Below are positions 3,598-51,090 of a stretch of 64,000 nucleotides of DNA, piece by piece. Numbering within the stretch: the first letter of the stretch is position 1; the number at the start of each line of letters is the position of its first letter. A program made the translations under genes and the position numbers. This stretch comes from Faecalibacillus intestinalis. GTDB taxonomy: Bacteria > Bacillota_I > Bacilli_A > Erysipelotrichales > Coprobacillaceae. The stretch covers positions 1 to 64,000 of the forward strand of contig NZ_PYLQ01000012.1 in the NCBI RefSeq assembly GCF_003024685.1. The letters run 5' to 3'. Below the pieces are notes generated by a model. The model was given only the letters and a program-made list of their open reading frames with translations. It was not told where the DNA came from and did no database searches.

Positions 3598-3630
3598 AAA
3601 TGACCTCCATTGGAGGTCATTGCCTTTTAT
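3596..3630. terminator. Bidirectional terminator between maa and asd
   Basis: A 9-bp stem ATGACCTCC/GGAGGTCAT with a 3-base loop is flanked by A-rich sequence on the left and TTTTATTTT on the right. It can stop both converging transcripts. Confidence 0.85.
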
Positions 3631-4664
3631 TTTAATAAACCTAATTCAATCATTTTTAATCCGATGTCTACAGAGTTATAAGCAGCACCTTTCATTAATT
3701 GGTCACCTGTAATCCATAAACTTAAAGCGTTATCTTTATATAAATCTTTTCTAACGCGTCCAACGTGAGTTAATTCATCACCAATAAAGCTTGTTGGCAT
3801 TGGATATACTTGGTTAGCTAAATCATCACATAAATCGATACCTGTACTATTTCCTAATAATTCAAAGACTTTATCCATATCGATTGTTTTTTTAGTTTCA
3901 ATATAGATTGATTCACTATGTCCACGTAAAACAGGAACACGTACACAAGTCGCATTGACTTCAATATCTTTATTGAAGATTTTTTTAGTTTCATTAACCA
4001 TTTTCATTTCTTCTTTACTATATCCATTTGATAAATCAAATTTATCAACTTGAGGAATACAGTTGAAAGCAATTGGAAAATGTTTTTTATCTCCAGCACA
4101 AGGTAATGTTTTAGCAACAGGTTCTTTACCATCTAAAACTTCTTGGCTTTGACGATAAAGCTCTTCCATACCAGCAACACCAGCACCAGATACAGCTTGG
4201 TAAGTAGAAACAACGATTCTTTCAATATCAAATTCATCATTTAATCTTGTTAATGCACTACACATCATAATTGTTGTACAGTTTGGACAAGAAATAATTC
4301 CATGATGATTTACTAATGCTTCACCATTTACTTCAGGTACAACTAAAGGAACATTAGGATCCATTCTAAAATGTGAAGTATTATCAATATTGACACATCC
4401 AGCTTCTACGGCATATTTCATATATTTTTCTGAAATACTTCCACCAGCAGACCAGAAAGCAACTTCAACACCTTCAAAACTGTTTTCAGTTAATTCTTCA
4501 ACAACAAATTTATGTCCTTCAAATTCGATTTCTTTTCCAGCACTTCTTGCAGAAGCTAATAATTTAATACTTTCAAAAGGAAAGTTAAATTGGAAAACAC
4601 ATCTTAACATTTCACGACCAACGGCACCAGTAGCACCTACAATAGCAATTTTAAATTTTTTCAT
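3627..4664 (-). CDS. asd: Aspartate-semialdehyde dehydrogenase
   Basis: A 345-residue NADP-dependent enzyme that reduces aspartyl phosphate to aspartate semialdehyde, the branch point to lysine/diaminopimelate and homoserine. An N-terminal Rossmann motif VGATGAVGREML is followed by the active-site SCPNCTTIMM (Cys near residue 129) and the QAVSGAGVAG loop. The length is normal. It lies 13 bases downstream of hom in the same leftward operon, so it is expected to come under the hom leader attenuator. The bidirectional terminator follows. Confidence 0.95.
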   Translation of the reverse strand: MKKFKIAIVGATGAVGREMLRCVFQFNFPFESIKLLASARSAGKEIEFEGHKFVVEELTENSFEGVEVAFWSAGGSISEKYMKYAVEAGCVNIDNTSHFRMDPNVPLVVPEVNGEALVNHHGIISCPNCTTIMMCSALTRLNDEFDIERIVVSTYQAVSGAGVAGMEELYRQSQEVLDGKEPVAKTLPCAGDKKHFPIAFNCIPQVDKFDLSNGYSKEEMKMVNETKKIFNKDIEVNATCVRVPVLRGHSESIYIETKKTIDMDKVFELLGNSTGIDLCDDLANQVYPMPTSFIGDELTHVGRVRKDLYKDNALSLWITGDQLMKGAAYNSVDIGLKMIELGLLK

Positions 4665-4677
4665 TTTTATAATCTCC

Positions 4678-5832
4678 TTATCCTCTTACTTTGAAAATAA
4701 CAGCATTTTCATCATTTAATTTATTTTTTAAATCAGCTAATTCAATTTCTTCTGTTATATAAATATGATCATCTTTTTCACTATAGTATGTTTCATAAGG
4801 AATATCTACAGGTTTAGATGCTCTTACATAATAGCGTGAAGAAGAAATAGGGTAAACATGTTTACAATCTTCATAATCATGTGACCATCTTTCTACTTGG
4901 TGTGTTTTCATGATATCACTGACAACAGCTGAAGCAGTGACATAACGTCCAGCACCACGACCATAATAGATGATGTTATTAACATAATCGTTATCGATTT
5001 CAACAACGTTGTAAGAATCCATAACATTAGCAACAAGTTCATTTAAATTAACAAGTGTTGCGGAAACATCAATTCCTAAACCATCTTTAACAGGTTTTGC
5101 TTGAGCAATCATTTTAAAACGATAACCTAATTTTTTAGCGTAATCCATATCTAATTTAGTGACATTACGGATACCGCTAGCTTGAATTTGATCAAAGTCA
5201 ACAAATTTTTGATAACCATTTTGCGCTAAGATACAAATTTTATGAGCAGCATCAATTCCATCTAAGTCTAAAGCTGGATTAGCTTCAACATATCCTAAAC
5301 CATCTGCAATTGATAAGGCTTCATCAAAATCAAGATTTTCATTTTCCATTAAAGTTAAAATAAAGTTTGTTGTTCCATTTAAAATACCAACAATTTCTTT
5401 AGTGTTATTTGCAATCAAACTTTCTTTTTGACTTGCTAGAACAGGAATACCTCCCCCTACAGAAGCTTCATAGAAAATATGTACATCATTTGCTTTAGCA
5501 GTTTTGAAAATTTCTTTTCCATAATGAGCTAATAAAGCTTTATTAGCTGTAACTACATGTTTTTTGTTATTTAATGCTTCTAAGATAATGTTTTTCGCAA
5601 TTGTTGTTCCCCCAATAAGTTCAACCACGACATCAATTTCCTCATCATTAATAACATCATGATAATCTTTTGTATAGATGATTTCCTTAGGTAAGTCTAC
5701 TTCTTCAAGACCACACCCGTATTTAACAACAATTTCTTGTTTCATTTCTTTTTCTAAACGTGTTTTTTCATTTGTAAGAATTTCAATGACCCCATATCCT
5801 ACAGTACCAAGTCCAATAACACCTATTTTCAT
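4678..5832 (-). CDS. hom: Homoserine dehydrogenase
   Basis: A 384-residue NAD(P)H-dependent reductase converting aspartate semialdehyde to homoserine. A Rossmann fold (IGVIGLGTVGYGV) precedes VVTANKALLAHYG, GILNGTTNFIL and GLGYVEANPALDLDG. It is shorter than the ~430-residue Gram-positive form with a full C-terminal ACT domain; only about 60 residues follow the catalytic domain, so classical ACT feedback by threonine may be reduced. It is first in hom-asd and is preceded by its own promoter, a Thr/Ile leader peptide and a terminator hairpin immediately before the AAGGGGG ribosome site. Confidence 0.94.
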   Translation of the reverse strand: MKIGVIGLGTVGYGVIEILTNEKTRLEKEMKQEIVVKYGCGLEEVDLPKEIIYTKDYHDVINDEEIDVVVELIGGTTIAKNIILEALNNKKHVVTANKALLAHYGKEIFKTAKANDVHIFYEASVGGGIPVLASQKESLIANNTKEIVGILNGTTNFILTLMENENLDFDEALSIADGLGYVEANPALDLDGIDAAHKICILAQNGYQKFVDFDQIQASGIRNVTKLDMDYAKKLGYRFKMIAQAKPVKDGLGIDVSATLVNLNELVANVMDSYNVVEIDNDYVNNIIYYGRGAGRYVTASAVVSDIMKTHQVERWSHDYEDCKHVYPISSSRYYVRASKPVDIPYETYYSEKDDHIYITEEIELADLKNKLNDENAVIFKVRG

Positions 5833-5847
5833 GATAGTCCCCCTTAT

Positions 5848-5873
5848 AATAAAAATAGACCAAATGGTCTATT
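5848..5873 (-). terminator. Attenuator terminator in the hom leader
   Basis: In the RNA the stem AATAGACC (5873-5866) pairs with GGTCTATT (5861-5854) around a 4-base loop, followed by TTTATT. It lies directly upstream of the hom ribosome site. Its 5' arm can instead pair with 5898-5888, which gives an alternative antiterminator. Confidence 0.85.
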
Positions 5874-5909
5874 GAAAACTTAACATAAACAAACCATTAT
5901 TCTTGAGCT

Positions 5910-5951
5910 TTATTTTTTAAATGCATCAATAATAGTTTTAATGGTTATCAT
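5910..5951 (-). CDS. Threonine/isoleucine leader peptide of hom-asd
   Basis: A 13-codon ORF, MITIKTIIDAFKK, lies in the hom leader with a GAGG ribosome site seven bases upstream of its ATG. Two Thr and four Ile codons occur among the first eight, the two end products of this pathway branch. The Thr/Ile codons overlap RNA segment 1 (5946-5939), which can pair with segment 2 (5899-5892). The stop lies about 10 bases before segment 2. This is the geometry of ribosome-stalling attenuators such as enterobacterial thrL. No T-box core sequence is present. Confidence 0.75.
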   Translation of the reverse strand: MITIKTIIDAFKK

Positions 5952-5982
5952 AGTTAAGCCTCGCTTTCTTTACTTTTTTGAT

Positions 5983-6011
5983 ATAATAGCATGATTGTAT
6001 ACAGTAGTCAA
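5983..6011 (-). promoter_or_regulatory. hom promoter with GTATAC dyad
   Basis: On the minus strand TTGACT (6011-6006) is followed after 17 bases by TATTAT (5988-5983). A palindromic core GTATAC (5997-6002) sits in the spacer close to the -35 box. The predicted start gives a ~145-base leader. Confidence 0.75.
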
Positions 6012-6065: not shown

Positions 6066-6094
6066 TTGACTTTGTATACAATATTCAATATAAT
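6066..6094 (+). promoter_or_regulatory. thrC promoter with GTATAC dyad
   Basis: TTGACT (6066-6071), 17 bases, TATAAT (6089-6094). The palindrome TTGTATACAA lies directly after the -35 box (6072-6081), mirroring the hom promoter. This suggests one DNA-binding regulator for both divergent threonine operons. Confidence 0.8.
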
Positions 6095-50878: not shown

Positions 50879-50894
50879 AAGGTCAATAAAAAAA

Positions 50895-51090
50895 TTATAG
50901 GTAAGAGAAGTATATTGATGATATTTTATAGAGAGGGCATGCTGGTGGAAATTGTCTAAATGATTGAATAGAAATGCACTTACTTGAGTCTTTTGAAAAG
51001 AAAGAACGTTGATTGCGTTAAGGTCATGATAAGCATCGTCTATCTGGTGGAAGAACACGGCAGTGTCTAGATAGTGTATGCTTTTTTTAT
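50895..51090 (+). ncRNA. Cysteine-specific T-box leader
   Basis: Stem I closes with GTAAG/CTTAC and contains AGAGAGGGCATGCTGGTGG-like conserved loops. The specifier codon TGC (50975-50977) lies in GAAATGCAC. A T-box segment TGGTGGAAGAACACGG (from 51045) has TGGA (51048-51051) to pair with the UCCA end of tRNA-Cys. It overlaps a terminator with arms 51033-51045 and 51069-51081 and a T7 run. Uncharged tRNA-Cys would permit transcription of cysS. Confidence 0.85.

Follow-up and report, generated by a model that had tools for sequence, protein, structure and literature searches.

A candidate threonine/isoleucine leader-peptide attenuator upstream of hom-asd in Faecalibacillus intestinalis

The usual sensor for amino-acid genes in the Bacillota is the T-box riboswitch, and the homoserine dehydrogenase gene (hom) of Faecalibacillus intestinalis raises the question of what takes its place where no T-box is found. 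We analyzed a 64,000-nucleotide stretch of contig NZ_PYLQ01000012.1 (the window) from a genome of 2.79 Mb (G000), where it lies on contig C4. An earlier note on this DNA had proposed a ribosome-stalling attenuator before hom and had seen no T-box core there. Rfam bears out the latter point. The T-box family (RF00230) has 22 matches in the genome, 18 of them above the cut-off, with thrS, ilvA, cysS and the gene for methionyl-tRNA synthetase among the genes downstream; none of these matches lies at hom, and 26 loci surrounding related hom genes yielded none either. No Rfam family reached the gathering score in the window or in those 26 loci, and relaxed thresholds returned chance matches only. 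Searches with RF00506 (Thr_leader) came up empty for the genome and, at gathering score, for the window. Below the cut-off, T-box matches were seen at 50894-51068 on the plus strand of the window, upstream of cysS, and at G000:C4:69731-69918, upstream of ilvA just outside the window.

Layout of the hom leader

The hom protein is 98-99% identical to its homologues in Faecalibacillus faecis and one near relative. On the same strand, asd starts 13 nt past the end of hom, and the two probably form one operon (Table 1). Because the upstream neighbor thrC is divergent, a terminator in the 5' UTR can act on hom-asd only, and the hairpin at 5873-5854 cannot be the 3' terminator of another gene. Counted from a start predicted at ~5976 from the promoter position, the leader RNA is ~143 nt long. 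Every coordinate that the earlier note gave for its parts holds on the minus strand, and the intrinsic terminator that it built from segment 3, 5861-5854 and a U-run is indeed present before hom. The stem (5873-5866/5861-5854) has 8 bp, three of them G-C, and a loop of 4; it is the sole terminator-like site between 5600 and 6300 (shuffles average 0.2). Thr and Ile codons occupy positions 2, 3, 4, 6, 7 and 8 of the leader ORF, which has no internal Met codon.

Table 1. Positions of the hom leader parts, neighboring genes and related sites (window positions unless a contig is named)
Feature	Position	Strand	Details
asd, aspartate-semialdehyde dehydrogenase	3627..4664	minus	NF011456, E 1.2e-134
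hom, homoserine dehydrogenase, putative regulated gene	4678..5832	minus	NCBIfam NF004976, E 1.6e-112
Intrinsic terminator AATAGACC-ATTT-GGTCTATT	5854..5873	minus	followed by T tract to ~5848
Segment 3 AATAGACCATT	5863..5873	minus	antiterminator 3' strand, overlapping terminator 5' arm
P1 3' strand GTTAAGTTTT	5875..5884	minus	within loop of 2:3 antiterminator
Segment 2 TAATGGTTTGTT	5888..5899	minus	partner is segment 1 or segment 3
Leader peptide ORF MITIKTIIDAFKK	5910..5951	minus	ATG 5951, stop TAA 5912-5910
Segment 1 AACCATTA	5939..5946	minus	within control codons 2-5
P1 5' strand GAGGCTTAAC	5953..5962	minus	spans leader SD
Leader SD, GAGG	5959..5962	minus	7 nt spacing to ATG
hom promoter, sigma-70-like	5983..6011	minus	TTGACT-17-TATTAT, TG ahead of -10
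Palindrome-like site CTGTATACAA	6004-5995	minus	inside hom promoter spacer
TTGTATACAA sites in window	5995-6004; 6072-6081		hom promoter; thrC promoter
thrC	from 6121	plus	thrB with thrC, both divergent from hom
TTGTATACAA sites, G000	C8:37462, C8:37570, C20:33343, C15:22250, C6:42451, C6:49240, C6:29926, C7:24600/26463/26537, C24:8855
His leader	L110 ~3426-3376 (G000:C8)	minus	upstream of hisZ

The promoters of both hom and thrC carry a TTGTATACAA-type site, as do other amino-acid genes. Together with the low G-C content of the terminator stem, this would fit a weak, constitutively active terminator whose only effect is to lower hom-asd expression, with regulation left to operator-like TTGTATACAA sites at the promoters. 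Such an arrangement leaves the conserved alternative pairings and the codon bias described below unexplained, and we hold it to be very unlikely. Moreover, promoter-site control and an attenuator could coexist, as CodY and an attenuator do in Listeria (PMC5864092).

The palindrome itself has 14 exact sites in the genome compared to 12 for a control pattern, which is hardly more. Amino-acid and nitrogen genes have most of these sites in their promoter regions. Named by eye, the nearby genes are thrC/hom, hisZ, glutamate dehydrogenase, aroF, serC, an aconitase/isopropylmalate-dehydratase-like gene, four genes for oligopeptide-binding-like proteins, an alanine symporter and citrate synthase; GTATAC sites also occur in the hom promoters of many relatives. 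TTGTATACAA is possibly the operator of a global amino-acid regulator.

Alternative pairings and a masked ribosome

Both pairings proposed earlier for the leader form over their full length. Segment 1 AACCATTA (5946-5939) pairs with TAATGGTT of segment 2 (5899-5892) at 8 of 8 positions (1:2), and AATGGTTTGTT (5898-5888) pairs with segment 3 AATAGACCATT (5873-5863) at 11 of 11, two of them G-U (2:3). A further helix, P1, had been missed: GAGGCTTAAC pairs at 10 of 10 positions with GTTAAGTTTT (pair probability 0.82-0.99), sequestering the leader SD with RNA 3' of the leader stop. For the window sequence by itself, the P1 duplex energy is not unusual (p 0.28). The MFE fold of the leader (-28.9 kcal/mol, RNA z-score -3.0) contains 1:2, P1 and the terminator. 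Since the 3' strand of P1 lies in the loop of 2:3, P1 and 2:3 are topologically exclusive.

We folded the nascent RNA with RNA polymerase at the end of segment 3, masking a ribosome footprint from -15 to +13 relative to the P-site. With the ribosome stalled at any of the Thr/Ile codons, segment 3 paired upstream with a probability of 0.95-1.0, and its partner in the MFE structures was segment 2. This supports the proposal that stalling at these codons masks segment 1 and favors 2:3. The probability was still high at codon 9, dropped to 0.29 at codon 10 and stood at 0.02 for every position between codon 11 and the stop; 2:3 likewise reached ~0.02 in nascent RNA free of any ribosome. Masking is effective at codons 2-9, which is where all the Thr/Ile codons sit. 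None of 1000 dinucleotide shuffles of the leader, made with the terminator arm unchanged, reached the observed difference of 0.95 (best 0.59), so the codon positions and the pairing positions fit each other.

For a ribosome at the stop codon, the earlier note gave the outcome seen in the model, but the masking of segment 2 that it invoked is geometrically borderline and unnecessary. The model does give the termination state there (2:3 ~0.02), but the 3' edge of the ribosome falls at ~5902-5897 and covers little or nothing of segment 2; the model traces termination to 1:2, which re-forms together with P1, rather than to a masked segment 2. When the full-length RNA is folded to equilibrium, the terminator dominates in all states, including that with a stalled ribosome (3:4 0.94-1.0). 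Antitermination must therefore be kinetic and co-transcriptional, as is usual for attenuators.

From these parts we infer a mechanism in which translation of the leader would decide between termination and readthrough in vivo. RNA polymerase would transcribe the leader with a ribosome following closely. When Thr or Ile is scarce, the ribosome would stall at codons 2-8, covering segment 1 and displacing P1; segment 3 would be captured by segment 2 as it emerges, blocking the terminator and allowing hom-asd to be transcribed. When amino acids are ample, the ribosome would move on, 1:2 and P1 would form, and segment 3 would be free to build the terminator, ending transcription near 5850. P1 and 1:2 would form without a ribosome as well, which would make termination the default. 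Additionally, P1 should limit re-initiation because it hides the leader SD.

Leader peptides and helices in the Coprobacillaceae

We found hom in 40 of 43 genomes of Coprobacillaceae and compared the DNA upstream of it (39 distinct sequences). All 6 Faecalibacillus have a short ORF led by an SD, with a terminator, before hom; so do Thomasclavelia and members of ~8 further genera, so that hom leaders occur in ~10 genera of the family in total. The peptides include MMTIITIIDAFNK, MIIHMTIFK and MIIHITV in Faecalibacillus, MLSMGISLTITITSNSIITPIK and MLLMGMNSMMIIITSLIMPMNK in Thomasclavelia, and MMITINISKTIMCFLNC, MIKTINSSKTIMCLIYC, MKLMIMTS, MLTMIYVLR and MYKMMTMCISN in other genera. We selected leader ORFs by SD and position rather than content, one per locus and by eye, and took the expected codon counts from dinucleotide shuffles. 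Thr, Ile and Met, the three end products of homoserine, make up 42-52% of the peptides against an expected 23-27%. Over 25 full ORFs, start codons excluded, they account for 183 of 434 codons compared to 101 expected (z 10.0). Met, on which the earlier note had not remarked, is the most enriched residue in the relatives (41 versus 15 in the 25 leaders, z 7.2), followed by Ile (z 5.8) and Thr (z 4.3), and Leu and Val are not enriched in these leaders. The 12 divergent leaders alone give a z of 5.9 for the three residues and 4.4 for Met. The two other frames hold 5-12% of these residues and many stops.

These counts also bear on whether the leader ORF is a chance frame within a T-box, another riboswitch or a protein-bound attenuator. 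In favor of such a reading, this genome relies mostly on T-boxes as sensors, but a chance frame accounts neither for the enrichment in 25 leaders nor for the stops in the other frames. The leader, at ~140 nt, is also shorter than a T-box of ~190-240 nt, and with the empty Rfam searches we consider this whole group of explanations highly improbable.

Several loci depart from the common plan. L074 has an early stop in the leader and a broken 2:3, L036, L038 and L072 are missing the leader SD, and L027, L029, L031 and L032 have the SD, a P1-like helix and the terminator upstream of hom without an ATG-led ORF. All of these look like decayed lineages, and the last four are either decayed leaders or leaders that start at an unusual codon, for instance ATT. 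Among the genera of Coprobacillaceae, six lack the whole leader and others have lost its start or stop codon; seven genomes from another family of Erysipelotrichales have a short hom UTR with no such leader. L041 and L042 show a terminator-like hairpin before hom without a Thr/Ile/Met-rich ORF, possibly a different attenuator.

A similarity search with the leader DNA matched the two closest species only (E 1e-38 or better). Weaker matches elsewhere (E ~1e-4) were short and away from hom loci, and we set them aside as unlikely to be real. A covariance model built on Thomasclavelia (R1) found one match per Thomasclavelia genome, at hom, and did not match any other gene or genus; it thus neither shows a regulon nor reaches the diverged leaders.

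RNAalifold proved unreliable on mixed-clade MAFFT alignments because strands misalign, and we instead checked the helices strand by strand. A comparison of related hom leaders, which the earlier note had suggested as a check, upholds the SD-led Thr/Ile-rich ORF and the terminator in ~10 genera, and 1:2 is kept, but 2:3 is uneven. P1, pairing the leader SD with RNA past the leader stop, is present in all groups, its sequence differing considerably from one to the next, at z -2 to -4 in most relatives and weakly in L013 alone (-0.5). Between Faecalibacillus species, two P1 pairs changed on both sides (C-G/U-A, A-U/G-C), and 1:2 was swapped wholesale from AACCATTA/TAATGGTT to ATTCATATGACT/AGTTAGATGAAT with pairing retained. 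In nine Thomasclavelia, P1 and an inner helix are 92.9% paired, compared to 30-43% in slid controls, and their covariation score was equalled by 2 of 500 shuffles; the two-sided changes lie in the inner helix, while P1 varies on one side.

The 2:3 pairing is conserved in Faecalibacillus (L006 excepted) and in Thomasclavelia, where it is 93.7% paired with one-sided changes only. The Thomasclavelia segment GGUUCUA pairs with either the SD (AGGACC) or the terminator arm (UAGGGCC), and having two partners it changes through G-U steps only. In L006, L025, L026, L028 and L034, 2:3 hardly surpasses shuffles, if at all. In L004-L006, 1:2 and 2:3 have no common segment, and exclusion there depends on P1. 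Masking is also less clean in Thomasclavelia, where stalls at mid-leader codons change little.

The conservation of P1 invites a different view of the switch, in which access to the SD would be decisive and general initiation on the short ORF, not codon-specific stalling, would set termination. Of the helices, the one between P1's strands at the SD is retained most faithfully from genus to genus, often at -12 to -17 kcal/mol, and the four loci without an ATG-led ORF retain the SD, P1 and terminator all the same. SD access leaves unexplained both the Thr/Ile/Met enrichment (z 10) and the fact that masking is effective exactly at the Thr/Ile codons, and we judge it improbable as the main switch. 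The hom leaders combine a short ORF having its own SD, conserved control codons, a terminator before hom and computed exclusivity of 1:2 and 2:3, the last being weaker in some genera. Covariation is present for P1 and 1:2 in Faecalibacillus and for P1 and the inner helix in Thomasclavelia, with one-sided changes only in 2:3. We conclude, with a probability of roughly 0.87, that this is a ribosome-mediated transcription attenuator of hom-asd whose signal is the charging of tRNA-Thr and tRNA-Ile, joined in most relatives by that of tRNA-Met.

Relation to known leader peptides

The thr leader (thrL) of E. coli controls the homoserine/threonine branch through a Thr/Ile-coding peptide and segments that pair as 1:2, 2:3 and 3:4. 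The hom leader likewise has a Thr/Ile peptide and 1:2, 2:3 and 3:4 segments at the same pathway branch. It differs from thrL in its unrelated sequence, its SD-sequestering P1, the Met codons that most relatives add, its Bacillota host, and its target, since it governs hom-asd while thrCB forms a separate divergent unit. In contrast to a T-box (RF00230), which binds tRNA directly, it would sense through translation of a peptide.

The earlier note had presented such an attenuator as a surprise in a Firmicute. The lineage does mostly use T-boxes, but leader-peptide attenuation in Bacillota is on record (PMC9413887, PMC5864092, PMC5794164, PMC2965389), his operons of Erysipelotrichales included, so the surprise is smaller than claimed. 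Attenuators with leader peptides are described at hisS/hisZ in bacilli (PMC2965389). For his operons, they have been predicted in Peptostreptococcaceae, the B. cereus group and six Erysipelotrichales, among which Coprobacillus, Erysipelatoclostridium, Catenibacterium and Eggerthia are named (PMC9413887). The Erysipelotrichales his leaders share with the hom leader their order, runs of control codons and a terminator with an antiterminator; they differ in serving his operons through His codons rather than hom-asd through Thr/Ile/(Met). Experimental support exists for ribosome-mediated attenuation by the 13-aa leader peptide of Rli60 (ilv-leu) in Listeria monocytogenes (PMC5864092) and by the ilvD attenuator peptide of S. 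aureus (PMC5794164). These two have in common with the hom leader a short leader peptide, ribosome-mediated attenuation and a Bacillota host, but they respond to branched-chain amino acids at ilv-leu operons, with CodY as a second layer. The predicted antiterminator of Rli60 is weaker than its terminator (-10.3 versus -17.1 kcal/mol; PMC5864092), as it is in the hom leader.

The source genome has a second candidate leader-peptide attenuator, of the class predicted in PMC9413887. Upstream of hisZ, a His leader MKILNNTQLHHHHWKK (LHHHHWKK) is followed by a terminator and a possible antiterminator; under our simple masking model it gave no clean switch.

The hom leader combines classical logic with a new target gene, a new amino-acid combination, an SD-sequestering layout and an unrelated sequence. 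A search of the open-access literature turned up no Thr/Ile or Thr/Ile/Met leader at a Bacillota hom gene, and an older prediction in subscription papers is possible. Whether these leaders form an independently evolved class of attenuator falls, in our estimate, a little short of an even bet. In such a class, one peptide would integrate Thr, Ile and Met, the anti-antiterminator would be built on the leader's own SD, and a single pioneer ribosome would pass before the SD is shut, all in a lineage where T-boxes serve many of the other amino-acid genes.

A prediction that separates the relatives follows directly from the Met codons: hom readthrough should rise under Met shortage in Thomasclavelia and hardly in the window strain, because the leader of the latter has no internal Met. 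If the attenuator reading is right, the homoserine branch point would be added to the small set of Bacillota pathways under leader-peptide attenuation. Within one genome, a Thr/Ile leader and a His leader would then stand alongside the T-boxes of thrS, ilvA and the gene for methionyl-tRNA synthetase, and the diverged natural variants of the hom leader would offer material for asking why genes switch between sensors of tRNA charging.
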